NCBI GenBank assembly: GCA_017962445.1
Contig: JAGCVI010000018.1
Coordinates: 111,159-175,158 of the forward strand
Direction: 5' to 3'
Source of the DNA: Bacteroidales bacterium
GTDB lineage: Bacteria > Bacteroidota > Bacteroidia > Bacteroidales > P3
Length of the DNA stretch: 64,000 bases
Shown: piece after piece, positions 1 to 12,600 of the stretch
Position numbering within the stretch: the stretch's first letter is position 1
How the letters are laid out: each line of letters opens with the position of its first letter
Made by a program: the position numbers and the translations under genes
Notes under the pieces: generated by a model
Databases searched by the model: none
Seen by the model: the letters and a program-made list of their open reading frames with translations, nothing else
Told to the model about the DNA's origin: nothing

Positions 1-616
1 TGCTGCCGACGACGTCCGACTTGCCGTCCACAGCCAAGCCGAAATCGAGAAGGATATAGGTGCCGTCACTGCGGCGCATGATATTGCCGGTGTGTATGTC
101 GTTGTGGACAACGCGATACTTTTCTATCAAACGACGCTCCACCTCGGGAGTTATCAGTGCCGAGCCGTCGTCGGCATCCTCGAGGCTGTCGCTCTCGCGG
201 TCGTAGCACACCTTGTAGATGTCGTGATGGCAGTAAGCCAATGCTGATCCTATTTCGCGGAGCATACGCAAAGTCTCGTCGATGGGCACCTTGCCGTCGT
301 ATTGCTCTATCAGCTTACGAAGGTCAACGCCGTCGACCCAGTCCATCTCAACAAAGGCGCGACCTGCCACATGACGAGGCTGGTACACTCGCACAATGTT
401 TGTATGGCAGCCGTTGCCAAGCCTCAGCAGCACACGGCATTCGTGCAGGAAGTTCTGAAAAATCTTGTCGCTCTCCTTCTCCACATGGGCGTTGAGCACA
501 CGGATAGCACGGATATAGCCATATTTCAAGCTCTTGGCCTTGTATACGGTGGCATACCCGCCCTCGCCGAGCTCTTTCAGAAGAAGATATTCATCACCTA
601 ATTTATCGTATTGCAT
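1..616 (-). CDS. Ser/Thr protein kinase-like protein, N-terminal part (cut by window edge)
   Basis: This is the first ~205 codons of a Hanks-type kinase that continues beyond the left edge. It starts with ATG at 614-616 and reads MQYDKLGDEY, glycine-rich loop GEGGYATVY, HND catalytic loop (VVHNDIHTGN) and DFG (LLDFGLA) just before the edge. It is nearly identical, in both protein and DNA, to the complete kinase at 6946-8307, so it is a recent duplicate. As in that copy, the beta-3 ATP-anchoring lysine is arginine (RAIRVL). It lies directly downstream of the FGE-fold gene at 713-1897, matching the kinase/FGE neighbourhood of the complete copy. The kinase fold is certain. Whether it is catalytically active is not. 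Confidence 0.9.
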   Translation of the reverse strand, partial: MQYDKLGDEYLLLKELGEGGYATVYKAKSLKYGYIRAIRVLNAHVEKESDKIFQNFLHECRVLLRLGNGCHTNIVRVYQPRHVAGRAFVEMDWVDGVDLRKLIEQYDGKVPIDETLRMLREIGSALAYCHHDIYKVCYDRESDSLEDADDGSALITPEVERRLIEKYRVVHNDIHTGNIMRRSDGTYILLDFGLAVDGKSDVVGS

Positions 617-643: not shown

Positions 644-746
644 GTAACGGCTCGGCTCCGCTTCTCGCCGTTTACAAGCCTTCTCTGTTAGGTTTCTCCC
701 TTTTGACATAAACTACTGGACAAGGACCAGGCGGAAGCCCAAGTAG
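644..746. repeat. 103-bp direct repeat, copy 1 (3' end of FGE-fold gene plus downstream hairpin)
   Basis: This stretch is identical to 5819-5921. It covers the last nine codons of the FGE-fold gene ending at 713 and about 70 bp downstream, including the GC-rich inverted repeat GTAACGGC...GCCGTTTAC. Compared with copy 2, the outer left arm of the hairpin (GAGAAGGCTT) is missing here. Identity stops abruptly at the variable block of the gene. Confidence 0.9.
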
Positions 747-1897
747 CTGCCGCGGTACGATGCGAGGATGAAGTCGCGACTCGACACACGGCAGCCCCTC
801 GCGTAGTAGTCCCAGCTCCCGCCACGAATCACACGGTACGAGCCAGAATCGCCATAGTGTTTAGGATCGCGCTCCGCTGAACTGCCGTAGTGGTACCATG
901 CATCCGAGCACCACTCCCAGACGTTGCCGCTCATGTCGTACAACCCGAGTTCGTTGGCTTTCTTGGTTTTTACCGGATGTGTCTTATCTCCGCTGTTGTC
1001 CCAATACCATGCCACATCGTCTCTCGTATTGCTGCCACTGTACTTGTAGCCATTGCTCTTGCTGCCACCACGCGCCGCATACTCCCACTCCGCCTCGGTC
1101 GGCAACTGGAATGTGCGACCTGTCTTGCGGTTCAACTCGCTAATGAATGTCTGCACATCGTCCCAACTGACATTCTCAACCGGCAAATCATCACCCTTGT
1201 AATAGCTCGGATTATAGCCCATCACAGCCTTCCACAACGCCTGCGTCACCTCCGTCTCACCAATGCTGTAGCTGCTCAACGTCACCTGATGCGCCGGCTT
1301 CTCATAACTCCAACAATCACTTCCCTGTTCGCCGGTGCACCCCATGGTGAAGGTGCCGCCCTCGACATAGACCATCTTGAAACTGACACCGTTGACTGTA
1401 ATGGTCTGGTCCTTACTCGCTGGAGAACTAGATGTACTACCTTTCTGCACTGGTTGATTTGGGGGCTTTACATCTTCTGCACTAGACGCTGTAGTTGTAT
1501 TGTTTGGTATTTCATCATTACTTTTTTTACCACTTTGATTTTTACCATCTTTTTTTGTAGAAGGCTTATTTGTGTCAGATGCTTGCTTGCTATTATCCTG
1601 TTTAGCTTGTTGGTTTTGCTTATTCTTCTGATTATTACTTGTTGTACCAGTTGTTGATGTCTTTGTTTTTTTGCGCTCAGCTATCTTCAGTTCGATATTC
1701 TTGTCGCGTGAACATTTACGTTCGCCTAAATAAGTATTGTTATAGAAAGTCTCCACTTGTTTGTAGTTGCCTTCTTTCCATGCTTGTTCCATATTTTTCT
1801 TGGCTCTGTTGCACCAGTCGTCCTGCGCCTGCAACGGCATCACAAGCACACAAAGAGTAAACAGCAGAACACTATGAATCAATGTATTTATCCTCAT
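713..1897 (-). CDS. Exported FGE/SUMF1-fold protein (paralog A)
   Basis: A 394-residue protein with a signal peptide ending near LQAQ. A ~50-residue Cys-containing N-terminal module follows (pattern C-x2-AKxNMExA...FY...C-x-RDKxxELKI), then a ~90-residue low-complexity Ser/Thr/Lys/Asn/Gln linker, and a C-terminal FGE-sulfatase/SUMF1 domain (MVYVEGGTFTMGC, ETEVTQALWKAVMG, LPTEAEWEYAARGG, GNVWEWC, RGGSW, LGFRLVL). I do not see the catalytic Cys pair of true FGE, so a ligand-binding or structural role is more likely than sulfatase maturation. The ATG at 1895-1897 is preferred over an in-frame TTG at 1909, because MRINTLIHSVLL is the natural signal-peptide start. The C-terminal loop region (743-838) is strongly diverged from its sister at 5888-6859. 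Confidence 0.88.
   Translation of the reverse strand: MRINTLIHSVLLFTLCVLVMPLQAQDDWCNRAKKNMEQAWKEGNYKQVETFYNNTYLGERKCSRDKNIELKIAERKKTKTSTTGTTSNNQKNKQNQQAKQDNSKQASDTNKPSTKKDGKNQSGKKSNDEIPNNTTTASSAEDVKPPNQPVQKGSTSSSPASKDQTITVNGVSFKMVYVEGGTFTMGCTGEQGSDCWSYEKPAHQVTLSSYSIGETEVTQALWKAVMGYNPSYYKGDDLPVENVSWDDVQTFISELNRKTGRTFQLPTEAEWEYAARGGSKSNGYKYSGSNTRDDVAWYWDNSGDKTHPVKTKKANELGLYDMSGNVWEWCSDAWYHYGSSAERDPKHYGDSGSYRVIRGGSWDYYARGCRVSSRDFILASYRGSYLGFRLVLVQ
743..838 (-). other. Putative hypervariable region of paralog A (DGR variable-region-like)
   Basis: This block covers the codons from the X in GS-X-RV-X-RGGSW to the end of the loop before LGFRLVL. Compared with paralog E it differs at most loop codons, while the 103 bp downstream are identical. 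Several substituted codons keep a pyrimidine third base: TAC/CGC, ATT/TAT, GAC/CTC, TAC/GAC, TAC/AGC, GGC/TTC, AGT/TTT. That is the pattern left by adenine-directed mutagenesis of AAC/AAT template codons. No template repeat or reverse transcriptase was found in the window, so this remains an inference. Confidence 0.5.
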
Positions 1898-1918
1898 AAC
1901 ATATATCAATTATAAATG

Positions 1919-1949
1919 CAAAATTACAAAGAAATTATTGAATAACAAA
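1919..1949 (-). promoter_or_regulatory. Bacteroidota-type promoter for FGE paralog A
   Basis: Read on the minus strand this is TTTG (1946-1949), 19 nt, then TAATTTTG (1919-1926), which fits the -33/-7 consensus TTTG-N~19-TAnnTTTG. It lies just upstream of the ATG at 1897, so the leader would be short. Confidence 0.5.
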
Positions 1950-1973
1950 CCTTTCATGCAAAAACAAAATATA

Positions 1974-2023
1974 AATTTGTGGATTTCTCCTGTTTTTAAC
2001 GAAAAAAATTTGTGGATTTCCCC
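1974..2023 (-). repeat. Tandem upstream box GGAGAAATCCACAAATT (two copies)
   Basis: On the plus strand, AATTTGTGGATTTCTCC occurs at 1974-1990 and a near copy (AATTTGTGGATTTCCCC) at 2007-2023, a 33-bp spacing. A third copy (AAATGTGGATTTCTCC) sits at 5755-5770, at the same distance upstream of paralog D. The flanking sequence is also related, so the promoter regions of A and D were duplicated together. The box may be an operator or simply retained ancestry. Confidence 0.55.
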
Positions 2024-2176
2024 TTTTATTCCACTAAAAACAATGACTATCTGCACTTTACAGAAACATTCCATTAAAGGTTTCCTTTGGCAACTTCTAT
2101 TTATTGTCCATAGGGCAATTCTTTTAATAGCAGAAAACACCACACCATTCACCCTAAAAGAACATTTCATGCTTTT

Positions 2177-2253
2177 GCCCTTTCTGGACGTGATAATTTG
2201 GCTTTCAACACCCAGGGCGATGCCCTGGGCTGGGTAATTAAGCCCTTTCTGGA
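2177..2253. repeat. REP-like element: perfect 8-bp inverted repeat flanked by direct repeats
   Basis: CCCAGGGC-GAT-GCCCTGGG at 2211-2229 is a perfect hairpin. It is bracketed by two copies of GCCCTTTCTGGA at 2177-2188 and 2242-2253. It lies in the gap between paralogs A and B, and the rest of the gap (about 1950-2341) has no gene. It looks like a small palindromic repeat element. Only this one copy was noticed in the window. Confidence 0.45.
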
Positions 2254-2341
2254 AGTTTTTTTATAAACAAAACCTAATCAGTCACTTAAAAAATCCCTAC
2301 GAAATAACCATTTCCACAAAACAATTTCTGGGAAATGCAGA

Positions 2342-3202
2342 CTACTGGACAAGCACCAGGCGGAAGCCCAAGTCGAAGTCATAGGTTAAATCCTTGCAGC
2401 TTGCGCGATACGACACACGACAATTACTTGGGTAATGGCCCCAACTTCCTCCACGAGTCACATGATATGAGTCAAAATAAGGATTGCGTTTTGCAGAACT
2501 GTCATAGCTGTACCAAACATCTTCACACCACTCCCATACGTTGCCGCTCATATCATAAATACCAAGTTCGTTGGCTTTTTTTGTTTTTACAGGTTGTGAA
2601 TGTGTTCCATGTTCAATATTGCGATTATACCATGCCACCTCGCCTATTTCATTGCTGCCGCTGTACTTGTATTCCTTGCTCTTGTTTCCACCCCGGGCAG
2701 CATACTCCCACTCCGCCTCGGTTGGCAACCTGAATGTGCGGCCCGTCATGCGGTTCAACTCACGGATAAACCTCTGCACATCAATCCAACTGACACAGTA
2801 GGCAGGAATATTGTCACCGAGGCCATAAATCGTATTCCAACCATGACCATCTATCGGCACACTCCCCATCACCGCCTTCCACAACGCCTGCGTCACCTCC
2901 GTCTCGCCGATACTATAGCTGCTCACTGTCACCTGATGCGTCGGCTTCTCATCTTTTATACAATCTCCACCCTGCTCTGAGGTACATCCCATTGTGAAGG
3001 TGCCGCCTTCGACATAAATCATCTTGAAACTGACACCGTTGACAGTAATGGTTTGTTCTCTCTTTATTTGCGCTGTTTCATTGTTTTTCTCAACTTCACT
3101 GTTTTTGTTTGCATTACTGCCTGTCAGTCGCCATATCATAAATATAGCACCAGCGAGAACCAAAAAAGACAGAACACTATAAATCAATACATTTCTTTTC
3201 AT
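2342..3202 (-). CDS. Membrane-anchored FGE/SUMF1-fold protein (paralog B)
   Basis: A 286-residue protein starting with an ATG at 3200-3202. The N-terminus MKRNVLIYSVLSF...IFMIWRL is a single transmembrane segment or uncleaved signal. It lacks the Cys-containing N-terminal module of the other four paralogs and passes through a short charged linker into the FGE domain (MIYVEGGTFTMGC, ETEVTQALWKAVMG, LPTEAEWEYAARGG, GNVWEWC, RGGSW, LGFRLVLVQ). Variable-position codons here are CAT, ACT, GGC, CAT, TAC and TAT, again ending in C or T. Function is unknown; it probably displays a C-type-lectin-like domain in the periplasm. Confidence 0.87.
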   Translation of the reverse strand: MKRNVLIYSVLSFLVLAGAIFMIWRLTGSNANKNSEVEKNNETAQIKREQTITVNGVSFKMIYVEGGTFTMGCTSEQGGDCIKDEKPTHQVTVSSYSIGETEVTQALWKAVMGSVPIDGHGWNTIYGLGDNIPAYCVSWIDVQRFIRELNRMTGRTFRLPTEAEWEYAARGGNKSKEYKYSGSNEIGEVAWYNRNIEHGTHSQPVKTKKANELGIYDMSGNVWEWCEDVWYSYDSSAKRNPYFDSYHVTRGGSWGHYPSNCRVSYRASCKDLTYDFDLGFRLVLVQ

Positions 3203-3222
3203 AACTTCTTTATTTTAGATTG

Positions 3223-3230
3223 CAAATATA
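3223..3230 (-). promoter_or_regulatory. -7 box for FGE paralog B
   Basis: TATATTTG on the minus strand, 20 bp upstream of the start codon at 3202. No clear -33 TTTG is seen. Confidence 0.4.
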
Positions 3231-3278
3231 CAAAAAACACATGCTTAAACCATTCGAAAAATAGTTTTTTATACTACT

Positions 3279-4541
3279 TTACCATTGCTTTATATTAATA
3301 TCCTCTTTGTACCAAGACCTAATATGCTTGTACAAGGCTTCTGCAGCTGTCTTACTTGCTGCACTACCCATGCTGACATAGTATAGACCATCACGATTGA
3401 TAATATAAGAATCGCAACCACTTGCTTTAAGTTCTCTACATAATTGATCTGCATTTCCCTTATTTGCAAACACCCCCGCTATAATATCAAATCCTTGTTT
3501 CGATTCAGAAACAATTTTGCTTAAAACAGGACTATTTTTCCCGTTTTTTTCATTTCCAACTTCAAGAACCAGGCGGAAGCCCATGCCATCATAACAGAAC
3601 GACTGCTCGAAATTGTCACGATTCGACACACGGCAACTCCTCGACTTATAGTTCCAGCTTCCGCCACGACGCACACGGCCCGAGCCATAAGAAGGTCCCT
3701 GGGGATTAGTTTGACTTGCATTGTCATAGACTTCATACATATCATAGCACCATTCCCATACGTTGCCGCTCATGTCGTACAGCCCAAGCTCGTTAGCTTT
3801 CTTGGTTTTTACTGGATGCGTTTTCCCCTCACTGTTTTCTTTATACCATGCAACCTCGTCAATTACATTACTGCCGCTATACTTGTAGCCTTGACTCTTG
3901 CTGCCGCCACGTGCCGCATACTCCCACTCCGCCTCGGTGGGCAGGCGGAAAGTGAGACCTGTCTGGCGGTTCAACTCCCGGATAAACCTCTGCACATCGT
4001 CCCAACTGACCTTGTAGGCAGGATAGTTTTTGCCGCGACCGTATTCTTTTGTCCAGCCATCCTTATATGTTGGCTCACTTCCCATCACCGCCCGCCACAA
4101 TGCTTGCGTAACCTCTGTCTCGCCTATACTGTAGCTGCTCAGTGTCACCTTATGTGCCGGCTTTTCGTCATCATCATAATCTCCCTCCTGCTCCGAGGTG
4201 CAGCCCATCGTAAAGGTGCCGCCCTCAACATAGACCATCTTGAAACTAACGCCGTTGACGGTAATGGTCTGGTCTTTGCCAGTGGGCTGTGTGGGTGTTG
4301 TCGGCTTTGGTTTTGGTTTGGGTGTATTATCCTTACCACAATTGGCTATCTTCAATTCAATTTTCTTGTCGCGTGGACAATTATATTCCTTTAAATATAT
4401 GGAATTATAGAAGGATTCGACTTGCTTGCAATTGCCTACTTTCAACGCTTCCACCATGTTGTTCTTGGCATTGTTGCAGTCCTGCGCTCGCATCGGTACA
4501 AAAACAAAAACTATTATTATTAGAACCAGCAGATTTTTCAT
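3279..4541 (-). CDS. Exported FGE/SUMF1-fold protein with C-terminal SPOR-like domain (paralog C)
   Basis: A 420-residue protein from the ATG at 4539-4541 (an in-frame TTG lies at 4568). It has a signal peptide (MKNLLVLIIIVFVF...MRAQ), the Cys-containing N-terminal module, a KPKPKP/TPTQPT linker, the FGE domain up to MGFRLVLEV, and then an extra ~75 residues that none of the other paralogs have. That tail (GFDIIAGVF, ADQLCRELKASGCDSYII, YYVSMGSAASKTAAEALYKHI) resembles a SPOR domain, which binds denuded peptidoglycan glycan strands at division septa. This fits the cell-wall synthase at the head of the cluster. The 5' half is nearly identical in DNA to paralog E. Confidence 0.87.
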   Translation of the reverse strand: MKNLLVLIIIVFVFVPMRAQDCNNAKNNMVEALKVGNCKQVESFYNSIYLKEYNCPRDKKIELKIANCGKDNTPKPKPKPTTPTQPTGKDQTITVNGVSFKMVYVEGGTFTMGCTSEQEGDYDDDEKPAHKVTLSSYSIGETEVTQALWRAVMGSEPTYKDGWTKEYGRGKNYPAYKVSWDDVQRFIRELNRQTGLTFRLPTEAEWEYAARGGSKSQGYKYSGSNVIDEVAWYKENSEGKTHPVKTKKANELGLYDMSGNVWEWCYDMYEVYDNASQTNPQGPSYGSGRVRRGGSWNYKSRSCRVSNRDNFEQSFCYDGMGFRLVLEVGNEKNGKNSPVLSKIVSESKQGFDIIAGVFANKGNADQLCRELKASGCDSYIINRDGLYYVSMGSAASKTAAEALYKHIRSWYKEDINIKQW

Positions 4542-4674
4542 TATGATGATTTTTCTACTAATTATCAAACATACAGAAGTTATTAAATATCAAAGATTAA
4601 AAACCTTTATTTCAATCAATTAAATAAAAAAAATCAACAACCATGTTTTCTTTTAAAATCATTATTAAAAATCA

Positions 4675-5673
4675 TTATTGGTCAAGTACCAAGCGAAAGC
4701 CTAAGGAGTGGGAACCTTTTTCTTCACTTTCACCTCTATCATACCTTCGATTGCGATACGACACACGACATTTTTCTGCTTCACAATCCCAGCAACCACC
4801 ACGCACCACGTAGTCGTAGCTATATTTTTTATAGCCTTCTGGATTTGTCACTTGATAGCTTGAGTATTCTACATACACATCATTGCACCATTCTGCCACA
4901 TTACCACTCATATCGTATAAACCAAGTTCGTTTGCTTTCTTGCTTTTGACAGGACTTGTTTTTCCTGGACTATTGTTCCAATACCACGCCACTTCATTGA
5001 TATCATTACTGCCACTATACTTATTTCCTTCACTATTTTTGCCGCCTCGTGCAGCATACTCCCATTCTGCCTCGGTAGGCAAACGAAACTTGAGTCCTGT
5101 CTTTTCATTAAGTTTTCTGATAAACTGTGAAATATCATAACGATTGATATAATAGACAGGGTAATCGTCACCAAGACCATATCCTACCGTCCATCTATAC
5201 GGTTTACTTTCCATCACTTCACACCATAATGCCTGGGTTACTTCCGTCTCACCTATATAGTAGCCACTCAACATCACTCCGTGTGATGGTTTTTCATCAT
5301 CATTACAATCATTACCTTGCTCAGAAGTACAACCCATAGTGAAGGCACCACCTTCAACGTATACCATCGTAAAACTAACCTTGTTTACTTTGATAGTACG
5401 GCTTTTTGGCGAAGGTTGAGGTTGATCTTCTATTTTAGATTCTCTGCATTTGTTAATTTTTAATTCAAGGTTTTTATCTCGAGGACACTTGTACTCATTT
5501 AAATATATTGAATAGTAAAATTTTTTTACTTGCATGCAGTTGCCCCCGTTCAAAGCCTCCTCCATGTTGTTCTTGGCATTGTTACACTTGTCGTTCTGCG
5601 CTTGCAGCGGCAATACAGCCACCGCAAGGAACACAAGAAGCAGAACACTATGAATCAATGTATTTCTCTTCAT
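4675..5673 (-). CDS. Exported FGE/SUMF1-fold protein (paralog D)
   Basis: A 332-residue protein with signal peptide (MKRNTLIHSVLLLVFLAV...LQAQ), the Cys-containing N-terminal module (CNNAKNNMEEAL...CPRDKNLELKINKC), a short Pro/Ser linker and an FGE domain. It is the most divergent of the five: RGGCW instead of RGGSW, AEWC instead of WEWC, a longer loop before LGFRLVLDQ, and an A/G-rich variable region (DCEAEK). It does not show the NNC/NNT codon pattern of paralogs A and E, apart from TAT at the position before the conserved Arg. Function unknown. Confidence 0.86.
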   Translation of the reverse strand: MKRNTLIHSVLLLVFLAVAVLPLQAQNDKCNNAKNNMEEALNGGNCMQVKKFYYSIYLNEYKCPRDKNLELKINKCRESKIEDQPQPSPKSRTIKVNKVSFTMVYVEGGAFTMGCTSEQGNDCNDDEKPSHGVMLSGYYIGETEVTQALWCEVMESKPYRWTVGYGLGDDYPVYYINRYDISQFIRKLNEKTGLKFRLPTEAEWEYAARGGKNSEGNKYSGSNDINEVAWYWNNSPGKTSPVKSKKANELGLYDMSGNVAEWCNDVYVEYSSYQVTNPEGYKKYSYDYVVRGGCWDCEAEKCRVSYRNRRYDRGESEEKGSHSLGFRLVLDQ

Positions 5674-5694
5674 AAAAACAATTTATTAAGATTG

Positions 5695-5724
5695 CAAATA
5701 TACTCAAAAATATTGAATCACAAA
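5695..5724 (-). promoter_or_regulatory. Bacteroidota-type promoter for FGE paralog D
   Basis: Minus-strand TTTG (5721-5724), 18 nt, then TATATTTG (5695-5702), about 20 bp before the ATG at 5673. The GGAGAAATCCACA box (5755-5770) lies just upstream. Confidence 0.5.
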
Positions 5725-5807
5725 TCCTTCTTGCGAGAATAATCCTGACAAAAAAAATGTGGATTTCTCCATTTTCTCCCAATGAATTTGCATTATCGTT
5801 TTTTTCC

Positions 5808-5860
5808 GAGAAGGCTTAGTAACGGCTCGGCTCCGCTTCTCGCCGTTTACAAGCCTTCTC
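5808..5860 (-). other. Long hairpin downstream of FGE paralog E
   Basis: GAGAAGGCTT (5808-5817) pairs perfectly with AAGCCTTCTC (5851-5860), enclosing a second stem GTAACGGC/GCCGTTTAC. It starts 27 bp after the stop codon at 5888. On the minus strand it is followed by A residues, not a T run, so it is not a standard intrinsic terminator. A cruciform just downstream of the variable region is a known feature of DGR targets such as that of Bordetella phage BPP-1, which makes the position notable. Confidence 0.6.
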
Positions 5861-5921
5861 TGTTAGGTTTCTCCCTTTTGACATAAACTACTGGACAAGG
5901 ACCAGGCGGAAGCCCAAGTAG
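5819..5921. repeat. 103-bp direct repeat, copy 2
   Basis: Identical to 644-746. It includes the last nine codons of paralog E, its 3' flank and the inner part of the hairpin. Confidence 0.9.
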
Positions 5922-6859
5922 GAGCCGCGGGGCAGGGGCAAGGCGAAGTCGTCGCTGCGAAACGACACACGGCAGAACCAAGCGCTGTCGAGCCAGCTTC
6001 CGCCACGATACACACGGCGCGAGCCAGTAGAAGGACCCTTAGGATTGGTCTGGCTTGCACTGCCATAACTGCCGTACCAGTCTTCACACCATTCATACAC
6101 GTTGCCGCTCATGTCGTATAGTCCAAGTTCGTTGGGCTTCTTGGTCTTTACCGGTTGTGTCTTTTTTCCGCTGATGTCCCAATACCATGCCACATCTCCT
6201 ATCGTATTGCTGCCACTGTACTTGTAGCCACGGCTCTTGTTGCCGCCCCGTGCAGCGTACTCCCACTCCGCCTCGGTAGGCAACCGAAACGTGCGCCCCG
6301 TCTTGCGATTCAGCTCGCTAATGAATGTCTGCACATCGTCCCAACTGACATTCTCAACCGGCAAATAATCTCCCTTGTAATAGCTCGGATTATAGCCCAT
6401 CACAGCCTTCCACAACGCCTGCGTCACCTCCGTCTCACCTATGCTGTAGCTGCTCAACGTCACCTGATGCGCCGGTTTTTCATCATAATCACATCCTCCC
6501 TGCTCCGAGGTGCAGCCCATCGTGAACGTACCTCCCTCAACATAAACCATCTTGAAACTAACGCCGTTGACAGTTATGGTCTGGTCCTTGCTCGTGGGCT
6601 GTGTGGGTGGTGTCGGCTTTGGCTTTGGTTTGGGTGTATTATCCTTACCACAATTGGCTATCTTCAATTCAATGTTCTTGTCGCGTGGACACTTATATTC
6701 CTTTAAATATATGGAATTATAGAAGGATTCGACTTGCTTGCAGTTGCCCACTTTCAATGCCTCCTCCATGTTGTTCTTGGCATTGTTACACTTGTCGTTC
6801 TGCGCCCGCAATGGCAGAATAGCAACAATCATTATTACTGTAATCAATAATTTCTTCAT
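5888..6859 (-). CDS. Exported FGE/SUMF1-fold protein (paralog E)
   Basis: A 323-residue protein starting at the ATG at 6857-6859, with signal peptide MKKLLITVIMIVAILPLRAQ, the Cys-containing N-terminal module, a KPKPKPTPPTQPT linker and an FGE domain. Its 5' two-thirds match paralog C almost base for base, while its 3' half and 3' flank match paralog A, so it is a mosaic. The C-terminal block reads like a diversified DGR variable protein (NPKGPSTGS-R-RV-Y-RGGSW-LDS-A-WF-CRVS-F-R). It lies 86 bp downstream of the complete kinase with no promoter visible between, so it is probably co-transcribed. Confidence 0.88.
   Translation of the reverse strand: MKKLLITVIMIVAILPLRAQNDKCNNAKNNMEEALKVGNCKQVESFYNSIYLKEYKCPRDKNIELKIANCGKDNTPKPKPKPTPPTQPTSKDQTITVNGVSFKMVYVEGGTFTMGCTSEQGGCDYDEKPAHQVTLSSYSIGETEVTQALWKAVMGYNPSYYKGDYLPVENVSWDDVQTFISELNRKTGRTFRLPTEAEWEYAARGGNKSRGYKYSGSNTIGDVAWYWDISGKKTQPVKTKKPNELGLYDMSGNVYEWCEDWYGSYGSASQTNPKGPSTGSRRVYRGGSWLDSAWFCRVSFRSDDFALPLPRGSYLGFRLVLVQ
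5918..6019 (-). other. Putative hypervariable region of paralog E (DGR variable-region-like)
   Basis: The homologous block to 743-838. Codons at the variable positions are CGC, TAT, CTC, GAC, AGC, TTC and TTT, interleaved with invariant GGSW and CRVS codons. It is two codons longer than in A between the flanking Arg codons, so indels occurred besides substitutions. Confidence 0.5.
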
Positions 6860-6945: not shown

Positions 6946-8307
6946 TCATTTCCATGCTGTGCGGTTCCCGTTGGCAGGTGGATTGCTCCTCCTCTTCAAC
7001 ATGTCGAGTTCTCTCTGCAGTATACTAATTTTGCTTTTCAGGTTGATGACACTTTCGGTCAACACATTGACACGATCGTTTTTTTCCTTGAGCGCCACAA
7101 GCAATTCAGACTCTTTGGCTTTTGATTTTTTCAACTGCGAGAACAGGTCTTCGAGATTTCTTGTAAGAGCCCTCTTGTCCTTTTCCAATCTTACTATCCT
7201 TTTCTTCAAGTCATTCAATTCATCTATTGTGGATGGTGAGACAATCGTATCTGGCTTATGGACAGGAACTGTGACAGGGGCAACAGCAGGTGCAGGTTCA
7301 TGGACAGGAACTGTGACAGGGGCGACAACAGATGCGGGAACCTGTGAGGCTTGCTTCATATTGCCAAGCACTTCCTGATACAGCTCGTAGCCATCGGCGT
7401 AGCGGTCGGCAGGATTTTTAGCGAGGCAACGCATGGTCATATCGACAAGCCACTTAGGAGCGTCGTCGCGGTGTATGACTGGTGGCTGGTCATCGCGATG
7501 GGCCTTGAAGACACGGAATATTTCTTCGTCGGACAACACTTTGGCATCGCTGCGTACCGGGAACGGCGGCCTGCCTGTCAACATGGCGTAGAGTACACAT
7601 CCGAAGCTGTAGATGTCGTCCTGCGGTGTGGGGTCAAGACCCTTTGACCGCTCCGGCGACTTGAACTCGATGGCGCCCTGCTTCTTGCGGCTGCTTCCCA
7701 CCACATCGGTATTGCCGTCCACTGCCAAGCCGAAATCGAGAAGTATATAGGTGCCATCGCTGCGACGCATGATATTGCCTGTGTGTATGTCGTTGTGGAT
7801 AACACGATACTTTTCTATCAAACAGCGCTCCACTTCTGAAGTTATCAGCGGCGAGCCGTCGTCGGCATCGTCAAGGTTGTCACTCTCGCGGTCGTAGCAC
7901 ACCTTGTAGATGTCGTGGTGACAGTAAGCCAATGCTGAGCCTATTTCGCGGAGCATACGCAGGGTCTCGTCGATAGGGACCTTGCCTCCGTATTGCTCTA
8001 TCAGCTTGCGAAGGTCGATGCCGTCGACCCAGTCCATCTCGACAAATGCGCGACCCGCCACATGACGAGGCTGGTACATTCTGACGATATTGTTGTGGCA
8101 GCCGTTGCCGAGGCGCAGCAACAAACGGCACTCATGCAGGAAGCTCTGATAAATCTTGTCGCTCTCCTTCTCCACATGGGCGTTGAGCACACGGATGGCA
8201 CGAATGTAGCCGTACTTGACGTTCTTTGCCTTGTACACCGTAGCATAACCGCCCTCGCCAAGCTCTTTCAGCAGAAGATATTCGTCGCCTAATTTATCGT
8301 ATTGCAT
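6946..8307 (-). CDS. Cytoplasmic Ser/Thr protein kinase-like protein with C-terminal coiled coil
   Basis: A 453-residue Hanks-type kinase. Seen in order: glycine loop GEGGYATVY (17-25), HND catalytic loop (171-173, with the base D173), DFG (191-193), SPE in place of APE (217-219), and an insertion around 138-165. The ATP-anchoring Lys of VAIK is Arg39 (RAIRVL), with the helix-C Glu probably E59. A Pro/Val linker with two APVTVPVH repeats (~330-350) precedes a coiled coil (~362-440). No transmembrane segment or PASTA domain is present. It lies 48 bp downstream of the SEDS-PBP fusion and upstream of the FGE gene, suggesting cell-wall-linked signalling. Activity with Arg39 is uncertain. Confidence 0.92.
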   Translation of the reverse strand: MQYDKLGDEYLLLKELGEGGYATVYKAKNVKYGYIRAIRVLNAHVEKESDKIYQSFLHECRLLLRLGNGCHNNIVRMYQPRHVAGRAFVEMDWVDGIDLRKLIEQYGGKVPIDETLRMLREIGSALAYCHHDIYKVCYDRESDNLDDADDGSPLITSEVERCLIEKYRVIHNDIHTGNIMRRSDGTYILLDFGLAVDGNTDVVGSSRKKQGAIEFKSPERSKGLDPTPQDDIYSFGCVLYAMLTGRPPFPVRSDAKVLSDEEIFRVFKAHRDDQPPVIHRDDAPKWLVDMTMRCLAKNPADRYADGYELYQEVLGNMKQASQVPASVVAPVTVPVHEPAPAVAPVTVPVHKPDTIVSPSTIDELNDLKKRIVRLEKDKRALTRNLEDLFSQLKKSKAKESELLVALKEKNDRVNVLTESVINLKSKISILQRELDMLKRRSNPPANGNRTAWK

Positions 8308-8355: not shown

Positions 8356-11300
8356 TCATTGTTTATAGTATTCCAATTCTCTAAGCACTTTCAATACCGC
8401 ATCGCGACTGAACGCCATTGCCAGTCCCGAGCCTTCGTCGTTCAGACGTTCCATGCGAACAGCCACAGCCAAAGAATGCTTTTCGTTGTAGCCAGGCACA
8501 TTACATCCGTCAACATAGAAGATAAACCAGCCGTCGTTTATTTTCCGACCCTTGACAAGATCACGTTCAGGCGTACCTGTCTTGCCACCGACAGCATCGT
8601 CAGAGATGGCATTAACCGAAACACCGTTTTCTTTGTTACCATGCAGCGACATAGTATGCATATAGCCTTTCAAAAGAGATGCCTCTTTGCTACCGACAAT
8701 AGGTATACCCTCTTCGTATGGGTCGTTAAGGCAGAAACGAGTCTTAGGCATCACACCGCCGTTGGCAACCACCGACACCACACGCGCCATGCTGAGCGGA
8801 GTAGCAGAGAGCGTTCCCTGTCCCCATGCCCACATCCATTCTCTCTTACCCAAGGATTCTGGCTTGATGTCACGTGTGGACATATACTTCTTGTATTCGG
8901 CAATGCCGACACTATGTTTTTCGCTGACTATACCTTTCCAAAAAGAGCGTCTTCTACCGAGCATAGGCGAGTAACGGAAAAAGTAGGGCGTTATGCTTTC
9001 TATCTTGTCATCATATCCAAGCATGACTCCAACAGAAGCATAGATGCTGTCGAGATTGGAATAGAGGTCCAGTTGGTTCATCAGGTTGACGAAATAGCAG
9101 TTGGAAGAATATGCTATTGCACGTTCCATGGTTACGACACCTTGAGGCTCTTTGATTATTCCGTTTTTCACTTCGATATACTCTTTATCGTACATCTTAT
9201 ATTTATTTTCAGATGCCTTCAATCCATATTTCTGAAGGCCCGCCAAGGCTGTCATCACCTTGGCTGTTGAGCCTGGCATGGTGGGATAGACAAGACCAAG
9301 GTCTCGGTCAGTGTAGGCATGTCTCAAATTCTTGTCCTTGTAAAAGTTTTCATCGGAGTGAAGGCGTACGGTATCCTTGTTTACAGGAGGGTAGACGGCC
9401 GAGGCCAGCATGTCGCCTCTCTCGGCGTCAAGCACCACAACCGAAACACGCAGCAGGTTCTTGTTTTTGTATATATTCTTATTTTCCCTTTGGATATAGT
9501 CAATTATTTCATCCTGCAAACGGCATTGCAGTTTGGCATCGAGTGTCAGATAAAGATCCTGAGGATTGATGAATCGCGATTTGCGGTTGTTGACTTTTTC
9601 TATCCTGCCGCTGCGACGACCTGCTTTCAGGAGTGGCAGCAAGGCGCTGTAGTCGCGCAGCACCACCTGTTCTGAATAGAGTTCGACAGGAGGCTGGTAG
9701 CGGTCGGCGACGTAGCGACTGGACATCACATCGATTTTCACAGGTTTGGTGTGGGCGCTGTCGGCATAGAGCACATTGTCGAAGCCTCGCAGATAAGACA
9801 TGTGCTGCCATTCGGCCATATAGCCAAGATTGGTTGACGAGACGGCAGTGCCAGGATTGGCATCGCCCACCATAAACAACAGGCGGTCGCCCAAGGGATA
9901 GTAGCGACGTGTGCGGTGGGAACGCAAATTCTGCAATTCCTGTTCGCTGACACCCATTTCGACATAATTCTTGTAATTGATACTGTCGAGCGTGCTTGTG
10001 GCCAGCAGTATGCCGTTGCGGTCGTAGATATTGCCAGCCTGCAAAGCCCACTGGATATCGTTGATACGAGGATTGTACTGCACCAAGTTTTCGCCAGTCA
10101 CCGAAGTGACATACAAAGGCCGTATCAACGTGTCGTTGCGCTTGAACACCATGGTGCGGACAAAGACAAAAAGCACAAACATCGAAAGGGCAAACCATGC
10201 CAAGCGCGTCACCGCCACCGGAGCGCCATAGGGGCGGAATAGGTTGTCGGCGGCACGGTCGGCGGCATTGTCTTCGCGTGGGGCGAAGGTGTGCGCCTCG
10301 ACACTGAGCACAAGTCCGAAAGCCATCAGTGTCATTATCATGCTCACACGCCCGTAGCTCAAAAGCGGCACAGCGACGCCAGTCAACGGGATGACACCAG
10401 TACTGCCAAGTGCTATGACAGTGAACTGCACGGCAGTGACAACAGCGATGCCGAGACAAACAAAGAAGGCGAAATGGTTGCGAGAGCGGTAGCCCACAGC
10501 AACGGTATGGTGAAGTATTGCCAGAAGCAGCATCACGACAACAAGCAGTCCAAGCCAGCCCATCTGTTCGCCAAGGCTGGAAAGCACCATGTCGGTATGG
10601 AACGCAGGGATATAATTCGGCGAGCCATTACCGAAACCCTGTCCAAACAAGCCCCCCGAGGCAAGACCCCAGAGGCCTTCGGCCACCTGGCTGTTGGCCA
10701 CGGGATGGAGATCGGCACCGTCGAGGCCAAGCTCGCCCCACGGATTGGAACACATGTCGCTGCGCATGGCGAAACGCTCGCCGATGCTGCCCGGCAAGTT
10801 ACGGGCGAAGACAAAGACAGAGATGACGGCGTTGGCCATCATAGGCGACTCGATAATCTGACGTTTGGTGACAACCCACCATATAATCCACAACACAAAC
10901 CACAAGATTGCAAAGAGGCCTGCAGAATAGACCTTGCCGCCGATCCACACGACAAGCAGAAATGAGAGCACACCGACAAAAAGAAGGAAGATGTCGCTCC
11001 TTATAGCACTCGACATAAAGCTACGCTCAGCACCACCCCAACTGCCTTTAGACTTGATGACAGAATAGATGACTATGAACGAGAAAAGGAGCACAAGGCC
11101 AGGTCCCATATCGCCCAAAACAAGGTATATCAACAACATGCAGAACAAGGCAATGAAAATGCCCGACACATGACGTAGCTTGTTCCAAGTAAGGGAGATA
11201 TTACCCTCGGAGGAATAGCCGACAAGGCTGTCTGCCTTGCGGCAGAACCACGCCGACATGAAGAACACTATCAGGTACTTGGCTATCTCGCTCGGCTGGA

Positions 11301-12600
11301 ATGTCAGCGGACCGATTTTAAGATTGACTCCCATGCCGCCGACACTGCGTCCCAGAGGTGAGAACAGCAGGAGTGTGAGCAGCAAAGCTATCAAATAATA
11401 ACCCAGGCCTTTGCTTTTGAGCATTGTGCCGACACGGTCGAACCACGGGCTGCGGAAGAACATCTTCAAATCGACGAACTGCAGCACCGCCATGGCAACA
11501 ACACCAGCGACAACACCTTTTAGATAGTCGACAGCTATAAGATTGTCGACCAACGGGTCGTTGAACGAAAACATGCCAAGCAGACCGATGCCCGTAACAC
11601 CCATGAAAGCCGCCACAGGCCAGTAGACAGCCTCCTTGCGGCGACGCAGCCACATCACACCGCACAAAGCGAACCAGCTTACGAGGAACAGCACCGCCGA
11701 CCTCGAGACAAGCCCTTTCCACTGGTTCGGAGTGCGAAGGGTGAAAGAGTGGTCGTCGCGGATGACACGAAGTGTGGCATCGTCGAAGATGGAAACACGC
11801 AACGGCTGCTGATGGAATGTAAAATGCAGATTGCCATAGCTCTTTTTGAAAAACGACATCAACCGGTCTTTCAAACCCGACGGAGCGTTAGCTGTACGTC
11901 CCAATGTGCCACCGGTGGTGCCTTGCGAACGACCGTACTCATAGCCTTCACGCACAGGCAACACGCTGTAAGAGGCCGCAGTGTCGAGCCCCACAAACGA
12001 GGCCTCGCCCTGGGCGGACGTTATGGCGATGGCGACGACAGTGCTTTGCGGCAAAGCGTTGGAATCGAAGGTGTGCAGGCAAAGGTTGACCGATACACCT
12101 GCAACGGCAGCGTCCTTATCCATGACACGCACAGAGATGCTTCCATTGCCCGATGCCAGATTGACCTTCGAAGATGAGTCGCACAAAACCGAGTCGGATA
12201 TGAAATCGAAGTCCGAAACGACACTCCTCGCCTTGCTGGCCATAGCAGTGAGTTTGCTACGATTACTATCCAGCCCTTCCAATATTGAAACCGGCAGCTT
12301 CCAGCTGTTCATCCGAAGGCTGTAGAGTGACGCCAAATCGCGGCCGGGGCCTTTTAAAGAATCGGAAAGGAATTTCGCCACAAGCCTGGCATCGGCAGTG
12401 TCGGAAAAATAATTCCTGTTGAGCAGAACACTCTCAATGTCACGTGCCTCGACATTGCGGTCCAGATTGACAGAGAGGTAACTTTTATAGTCCTCCTCAA
12501 CATCTGAGAAATCAGCACGATAGGCACGAACCAACCTGGCGCACAGCAAAATGAAGCATACGGTGACTATCAGTATTGAGAACTTGCGCAGAATTTTCAT
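8356..12600 (-). CDS. SEDS (RodA/FtsW) - class B PBP fusion, peptidoglycan polymerase/transpeptidase
   Basis: A 1414-residue protein. The N-terminus has one transmembrane helix (about 7-26) and a ~270-residue extracytoplasmic region of unknown type, with an Ig/carboxypeptidase-regulatory-like stretch near 150-210. Residues ~300-770 are a multi-pass SEDS glycosyltransferase, with the motif HTDMVLSSLGEQMGWLG holding the likely catalytic D670, and PLTGVAVPLLSYGRVS. The C-terminal half is a class B PBP: GNIYDRNGILLA, SxxK motif STAK (Ser1111, Lys1114), SxN (S1165-N1167) and KTGT (1340-1343). SEDS and bPBP are normally separate partners, so this one chain would polymerise and cross-link glycan. 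The kinase gene follows, as in actinobacterial rodA-pbpA-pknAB loci. Confidence 0.93.
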   Translation of the reverse strand: MKILRKFSILIVTVCFILLCARLVRAYRADFSDVEEDYKSYLSVNLDRNVEARDIESVLLNRNYFSDTADARLVAKFLSDSLKGPGRDLASLYSLRMNSWKLPVSILEGLDSNRSKLTAMASKARSVVSDFDFISDSVLCDSSSKVNLASGNGSISVRVMDKDAAVAGVSVNLCLHTFDSNALPQSTVVAIAITSAQGEASFVGLDTAASYSVLPVREGYEYGRSQGTTGGTLGRTANAPSGLKDRLMSFFKKSYGNLHFTFHQQPLRVSIFDDATLRVIRDDHSFTLRTPNQWKGLVSRSAVLFLVSWFALCGVMWLRRRKEAVYWPVAAFMGVTGIGLLGMFSFNDPLVDNLIAVDYLKGVVAGVVAMAVLQFVDLKMFFRSPWFDRVGTMLKSKGLGYYLIALLLTLLLFSPLGRSVGGMGVNLKIGPLTFQPSEIAKYLIVFFMSAWFCRKADSLVGYSSEGNISLTWNKLRHVSGIFIALFCMLLIYLVLGDMGPGLVLLFSFIVIYSVIKSKGSWGGAERSFMSSAIRSDIFLLFVGVLSFLLVVWIGGKVYSAGLFAILWFVLWIIWWVVTKRQIIESPMMANAVISVFVFARNLPGSIGERFAMRSDMCSNPWGELGLDGADLHPVANSQVAEGLWGLASGGLFGQGFGNGSPNYIPAFHTDMVLSSLGEQMGWLGLLVVVMLLLAILHHTVAVGYRSRNHFAFFVCLGIAVVTAVQFTVIALGSTGVIPLTGVAVPLLSYGRVSMIMTLMAFGLVLSVEAHTFAPREDNAADRAADNLFRPYGAPVAVTRLAWFALSMFVLFVFVRTMVFKRNDTLIRPLYVTSVTGENLVQYNPRINDIQWALQAGNIYDRNGILLATSTLDSINYKNYVEMGVSEQELQNLRSHRTRRYYPLGDRLLFMVGDANPGTAVSSTNLGYMAEWQHMSYLRGFDNVLYADSAHTKPVKIDVMSSRYVADRYQPPVELYSEQVVLRDYSALLPLLKAGRRSGRIEKVNNRKSRFINPQDLYLTLDAKLQCRLQDEIIDYIQRENKNIYKNKNLLRVSVVVLDAERGDMLASAVYPPVNKDTVRLHSDENFYKDKNLRHAYTDRDLGLVYPTMPGSTAKVMTALAGLQKYGLKASENKYKMYDKEYIEVKNGIIKEPQGVVTMERAIAYSSNCYFVNLMNQLDLYSNLDSIYASVGVMLGYDDKIESITPYFFRYSPMLGRRRSFWKGIVSEKHSVGIAEYKKYMSTRDIKPESLGKREWMWAWGQGTLSATPLSMARVVSVVANGGVMPKTRFCLNDPYEEGIPIVGSKEASLLKGYMHTMSLHGNKENGVSVNAISDDAVGGKTGTPERDLVKGRKINDGWFIFYVDGCNVPGYNEKHSLAVAVRMERLNDEGSGLAMAFSRDAVLKVLRELEYYKQ

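Follow-up and report, generated by a model that had tools for sequence, protein, structure and literature searches.

Diversity-generating retroelements (DGRs) whose target genes lie apart from the reverse transcriptase (RT) and the template repeat (TR) have been described in several bacteria, and they are the systems closest to the locus treated here, a row of five tandem FGE-fold genes, A to E, in a Bacteroidales genome. In Treponema denticola, target genes are present in isolates without RT and TR, complete cassettes include an HRDC accessory gene, and the hypervariable side chains of TvpA lie on the outer surface (PMC4891356). Cyanobacteria possess paralogues consisting of a C-type lectin (CLec) domain only and paralogues joining a Ser/Thr kinase to CLec, which lie scattered over the genome and correspond to a single DGR template (PMC7517822). 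The DGRs of Thiohalocapsa PB-PSB1 diversify targets in trans, include loci with disrupted or missing RT/TR, and have been shown to vary within the population (PMC10907252). Inactivated DGRs and DGRs with several variable regions (VRs) (PMC3521204), FGE domains tied to DGRs in conflict systems (PMC7159879), a global DGR survey (PMC8144416) and the hairpin/cruciform after the VR in homing sites of BPP-1 type (PMC3240598) have also been published. The window, that is, the whole stretch of 64,000 nucleotides analysed, corresponds to contig C2:111159-175158 (JAGCVI010000018.1) of a 2.04-Mb genome in 38 contigs (GCA_017962445.1; G000) that is 80% complete.

Genes A and E of this row, together with gene F on contig C35 of the same genome, are very probably targets of one FGE-type DGR acting in trans, now unassembled or lost. 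What is observed is a codon fingerprint, a framework common to two contigs and, in 5 of 120 genus genomes, cassettes laid out in the same way; we infer that a single trans-acting machine wrote all three genes, and that its RT and template either belong to the fifth of the genome that is unassembled or have been lost.

The set resembles the TvpA-type DGR of T. denticola in having FGE/C-type-lectin-fold targets, several of them, some remote, including ones for which no RT or TR is found; complete cassettes of both kinds carry an HRDC accessory gene, and TvpA is the best solved relative of E. It differs in its host, a Bacteroidales genus, in its fusion of an FGE domain with a kinase as a target, and in that the one genome of this species analysed yielded no DGR RT. 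The dispersed CLec-only and kinase-CLec paralogues of cyanobacteria offer a second likeness, although these belong to another phylum, in F the kinase is separated from the FGE domain by a hydrophobic stretch, and no template was found here. Diversification in trans and loci without RT/TR are shared with Thiohalocapsa PB-PSB1, while population variation has been shown only there. Closest of all are the cassettes of genomes G008, G028, G032, G033 and G106 of the same genus, with N at the same template codons, AAT after CRV[AST] and FGE targets; unlike the window's genome, where none of the three was found, they keep HRDC gene, RT and template together. Titles and opening lines of abstracts on DGRs, rumen and Bacteroidales revealed nothing on these genes, and the literature retrieved on orphan targets was for the most part unrelated. 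Orphan and remote targets are thus of an already known kind, and, within the limits of the literature searched, the present gene set seems to be a new instance.

Variable codons of the FGE-fold genes

All five genes match the FGE-sulfatase family PF03781 (Pfam, E 3.4e-44 to 4e-51), and the genome as a whole holds 12 FGE matches, two of them within one open frame. Gene A (713-1897, minus strand; E 1.9e-49) has a VR of 37 scored codons at 728-838, and gene E (5888-6859, minus strand) has one of 39 codons, two more than A, at 5903-6019, both on the minus strand. The match of E to TvpA (2y3c, E 4.2e-45) spans the VR. The C-type-lectin/FGE fold and a VR at the 3' end, as in DGR targets, are found throughout, except that in gene C (3279-4538, minus strand; Pfam) a SPOR tail follows the VR. 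The remaining members of the row are gene B (2342-3202, minus strand), a possible older target, and the diverged paralogue D (4675-5673, minus strand; Pfam). Genes F and G on contig C35 are fusions of an FGE domain with a protein kinase domain, complete in F (PF00069, E 3.5e-45) and in G a fragment below the cut-off; G (L014:4840-6159) adjoins F. Gene H on contig C31 served as a control paralogue, its orthologue group (18 genes tabulated) being nearly invariant in this stretch.

The codons of interest, termed the mask, are those that are AAY (AAC or AAT) in the templates of relatives, taken from a genus set of 120 genomes with one genome per species. Two of them carry a caveat: of the five genus templates, three encode leucine at the codon after RV, one has AAT there and one AAC, and codon 24, which is Thr or Ala in genus templates, was included because it varies in the window genes. 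A first-pass annotation had listed ATT, ACT, CGT and TAT after RV in A, B, C and E, and AGT, TAT, AAT and TTT after CRVS in the same genes with TAT in D, and these codons are exactly as it gave them. At positions 1 and 2 of the mask, A and E differ more than expected by chance when set against the gene body (22/30 vs 44/368, p 5e-13), and so do C and E (27/30 vs 48/368, p 8.5e-19). This excess alone shows no DGR, because all pairs with control H have it too; what discriminates is that the third base stays constant, as it does in A, E and F, the result being non-significant for B, C, G and H. Between A and F, with both caveat codons included, 22/30 first and second bases differ and 0/15 third bases, with 5/54 differences in the framework and 144/552 (26%) in the body, where 78/184 third bases differ. 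The corresponding counts are 22/30 and 1/15 for A and E, and 21/30 and 1/15 for E and F.

Agreement with the third base of the same-genus templates was then scored over 13 codons, both caveat codons being left out, with the amino acids encoded and the codon usage of local genes taken as given. The codon after RV is omitted because it is AAT in only one of the five templates; an earlier version with 14 codons had counted its T as template-like, and the test was repeated without it, the 13-codon figures being those used here. A and F both reach 13/13 (expected 7.5, p 4.8e-4, and expected 7.4, p 4.7e-4), and E reaches 9/9 up to its length difference (expected 4.8/9, p 1.7e-3). None of the others is significant (B 9/13, p 0.36; C 7/13, p 0.72; G 9/13; control H 6/13; expected 6.6-7.9/13). 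Codon bias alone is ruled out as the cause in A, E and F by the conditioning on amino acids. Gene D, in which V is followed by GTG and which has five additional codons and a number of codons ending in purines, lies outside the target pattern on these grounds and was left out of the test for its length; neither E, with 39 codons, nor D, with 42, appears in the 37-codon tables. Adenine-facing variation, in which positions 1 and 2 of AAY codons vary while third base and framework stay fixed, was therefore found in A, E and F, with the templates of relatives as proxy. The proposal of the first-pass annotation that the paralogues vary at the same positions with a fixed third base, and are or were DGR targets, stands for A and E and extends to F through these third bases and the same-genus AAY templates; D misfits, and B and C, whose scores are non-significant, are compatible with it as older, drifted targets.

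The same score was applied across the genus. Motif extraction from a part of the genus's FGE matches gave 79 unique regions, 67 of which were tabulated (5 templates, 44 VR-type, 18 control). The cassette target of G008, whose end is out of frame, and that of G033, which runs off its contig, are unscored, and copies without the motif are uncounted, such as all four of L108 (G003:C41:64500-70891), a single frame of 1692 amino acids with a repeat-rich N-terminal half followed by four FGE domains that all end in a VR-like stretch. A score of 13/13 is reached by 8 of the 44 VR-type genes, namely A, F, one in G028, two in G106 and one each in G032, G100 and G051, the last two being the only such targets outside the cassette genomes and G000; genes of G025, G064 and G078 score 12/13. 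All four scorable cassette VRs (G028, two of G106, G032) score 13/13, and other copies in cassette genomes score lower (0.85 for L110 of G106, 0.77 for L089 of G032). The label "RT-" in the genus tabulation means only that no FGE-type cassette is present: a different DGR is present in G051, on contig C13 (L058), and G025, G078 and G100, which carry the label, have other RT-like matches, partly weak.

Among 24 within-genome pairs, only A-F (p 3.8e-4) and the two cassette VRs of G106 (p 5.3e-6) show no third-base difference in the mask, and one pair in G010 shows 1/14. The two G106 regions display the same mix as A-F, with varied positions 1 and 2 and fixed third bases and framework. Between genomes, 32 of 879 pairs have a mask third-base difference of at most 0.08; such agreement is no proof of a common template, because templates of this kind all use AAC/AAT, and the claim of a common template rests instead on the framework shared within the genome.

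Cassettes of the genus and the machinery of the window's genome

DGR machinery is present among the relatives. The Brt protein of BPP-1 as query matched 22/120 genus genomes at E<=1e-5, and a profile built from Brt and five DGR RTs of the genus matched 29/120 at E<=0.001, weak matches included. The FGE-type template pattern was found in five genomes, G008, G028, G032, G033 and G106, and the five best RT matches (E 1e-156 to 2e-148) are in these same genomes. These templates read NRV[LN]RGGSWNNNA[RK]NCRV[AST]NRNNN[TA]P[SDG]NRNNN[NL]G[FL]R[VL], with N at the mask codons, and AAT follows CRV[AST] in 5/5. HRDC gene, RT and template succeed one another on one strand in 5/5 cassettes (the HRDC match checked with Pfam for G106). 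Mismatches between TR and VR face template adenines in 93-100% of cases in the five genomes, for pairs selected for bias (at least 5 mismatches and bias >0.7). In G028 (L048, contig C16, 9344-10471), the RT frame continues in frame through the template, which may be translated as the RT C terminus. A template pattern with serine before the N codon recovered 26 stretches from a collection with one genome per species, nearly all Bacteroidota by title and one Chitinispirillales, and a looser pattern recovered one viral contig. A second DGR type occurs at L053-L058 (G048, G088, G093, G043, G070, G051), with templates reading GWFAALLGG...ARLY or similar and non-FGE targets; these were rejected as the source, since their TR/VR pairs are real but their templates lack the FGE motif, and L059 yielded no pair.

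Several results weigh against a DGR origin of A, E and F, the absences among them applying to the assembled 80% of the genome. No DGR RT was found there with Brt, and none at E<=10 with the genus profile; the template pattern gave no match, against one in each of the five other genomes; and the closest real template used as query recovered nothing but the genes F, A, C and E and four short, weak matches (15-21 bases). The HRDC accessory gene is likewise absent at E<=10 with the G106 query, Avd not having been searched for. No short-loop hairpin like that of BPP-1 follows the VRs of this genome, and those of the relatives also lack the form with a 4-nt loop, a result that decides neither way. 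The scores of B, C and G do not reach significance, the T expected after RV derives from AAT in just one genus template of five (AAC in one, leucine in three), and mask positions 1 and 2 exceed the body in every pair with control H (p 4.7e-3 to 5e-7). The first-pass annotation had predicted an RT and a template and named their lack in both the genome and its relatives as part of the evidence to the contrary; neither was found in the assembled 80% of the own genome, and the relatives have both.

With the 3' end of A as query, too, the genome yielded FGE genes and otherwise just matches 14-17 bases long. The sole RT found is of retron type (contig C5) and was rejected as a DGR RT, its best families being RT-Protease_XI (PADLOC) and, below curated cut-offs, retron/TIR RTs (NCBIfam), and its motif being GAPTSP vs GNLTSQ or GSLTSQ in DGR RTs. 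A DnaB-like/RecA-type ATPase gene follows it (L001, G000:C5:23118-26729).

If A, E and F are DGR targets, a template reading about NRVNRGGSWNNNARNCRVSNRNNNNASNRNNNLGFRL would be their common source, a single template being suggested by the framework common to two contigs. The RT would copy this template, misreading adenines at random, and the cDNA would take the place of each gene's 3' end at a conserved segment surrounding the stop codon, so that about 15 codons would be rewritten with third bases and framework unchanged. The candidate homing site, similar to an initiation of mutagenic homing (IMH) element, ends CAGTAGTTT and in A reads TTGGGC...CAGTAGTTT; it lies at 710-742 in A and 5885-5917 in E (minus strand) and is nearly identical in A, E, F and G. 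Its end resembles the VR ends of relatives: in G028, G033 and one of the two cassette VRs of G106, the VR ends TAGTTT vs TAGCTT in the template. An inverted repeat after the VR is seen in E, imperfect, of 19 nt with a 15-nt spacer, and A, F and G have none of at least 7 nt. Gene G is probably an older, drifted target, and the pattern in B and C, which are ambiguous, is compatible with the same history.

Possible loss of the element, and the alternatives of recombination and ordinary divergence

It is quite possible, as a special case of the DGR reading, that the DGR is gone and that A, E and F are remnants of a recent system that no longer diversify. The lack of machinery in the assembled part of the genome fits this, as does the publication of targets without RT/TR (PMC4891356), and two relatives present FGE-type targets beside apparent remnants. 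In G025, two FGE targets are accompanied by an HRDC gene (PF00570), after which comes an RT match no longer than 124 residues; in G051, an HRDC match of 58 residues begins about 130 bases after the 13/13 target, and an RT-like fragment recognised by eye (ANHYLSQFDHWVKELLQVS) comes next in a different frame. The pattern search found no FGE-type template in either. Such remnants beside intact VRs suggest that DGR loss occurs in the genus, with assembly error possible in either genome. In G025 (L197, C44:5000-20000), a caspase-domain gene (10082-10807, PF00656, 6.9e-19) adjoins the FGE targets, a kinase, the HRDC gene and the RT fragment, and this neighbourhood resembles published conflict systems. 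On the other side, a fifth of the genome is missing, and three of the five genus cassettes stand on contigs of <17 kb and may therefore escape assemblies; no RT or HRDC match of the remnant kind was found at the own-genome loci examined; and A, E and F still show the pattern without a flaw, a sign that they were written recently. The loci examined near the G100 and G078 targets likewise gave no such match.

Recombination between paralogues, by gene conversion or cassette shuffling, is very unlikely to have produced the variation, although it may have left traces in this row. Positions 644-746 and 5819-5921 are identical over 103 bp, each copy comprising the last 34 bp of A or E and 69 bp of intergenic sequence, so the shared 3' end reported in the first-pass annotation is exact and crosses the gene end. 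The last masked codons are also alike (GGC AGC TAC in A, GGC TCC TAC in E). Plain conversion would copy all three codon positions together, whereas A and F agree in framework and third bases yet differ at 22 of 30 first and second positions. The tract and the similar codons suggest recombination between A and E that acted in addition to the DGR.

Very unlikely, too, is ordinary divergence of positively selected surface loops under a C-rich codon bias with no DGR at all. In its favour, local genes use C more often than any other third base (0.40), the third-base signal is missing from B, C and D, and pairs with H share the excess at positions 1 and 2. Against it, the match in A, E and F is significant after amino-acid conditioning, the many third-base changes between A and F stay in the body, the control orthologues hardly vary here, and real templates of relatives carry N at the same codons.

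Gene neighbourhood and biological meaning

Beyond the DGR reading of A, E and F, the row is flanked by two Ser/Thr kinase genes, one upstream (6946-8307, minus strand; Pkinase 6.9e-36) and one downstream, with its 5' part at 1-616 (minus strand) and the remainder outside the window (Pkinase 1.1e-34, L018:6183-7790); a stretch of 300 nt common to both is 88% identical. The N termini of A, C, D and E are signal-peptide-like and that of B is membrane-anchor-like, as read from their sequences, and the hydrophobic stretch of F was recognised in the same manner. From these features it would follow that the variable face lies outside the cytoplasm, and the proteins are probably ligand binders of C-type-lectin fold there. 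Coupling to Ser/Thr kinases is probably direct in F and in the window perhaps exists by neighbourhood. The SPOR domain of C (3279-3560, minus strand, 1.4e-7) makes its VR internal, while those of the other paralogues are not. Further upstream, a frame of 1414 amino acids (8356-12600, minus strand) joins an FtsW/RodA/SpoVE domain (4.4e-36) to a penicillin-binding transpeptidase domain (6e-20), a fusion of cell-wall polymerase and transpeptidase.

A broader picture, which is doubtful at present, would see here a Bacteroidales repertoire for sensing at the cell surface: a single DGR, working in trans on loci apart from one another, would diversify a kinase-FGE receptor together with several secreted receptors of FGE fold. 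Once the DGR had been lost, as has apparently happened more than once in the genus, the orphan VRs would persist by inheritance and be reshuffled further by paralogue recombination, of which the 103-bp A/E tract would be an example. Third-base constancy, given the template of a relative, allows DGR targets to be recognised even when no RT or template is assembled. Surveys anchored on RTs probably undercount targets, since FGE homologues of E occur in 118/120 genus genomes (E<=1e-30, conserved control orthologues included) vs the template in 5/120, and targets scoring 13/13 are found in G100 and G051. The kinase fusion of F would give diversified receptors a role in signalling that can be put to the test.

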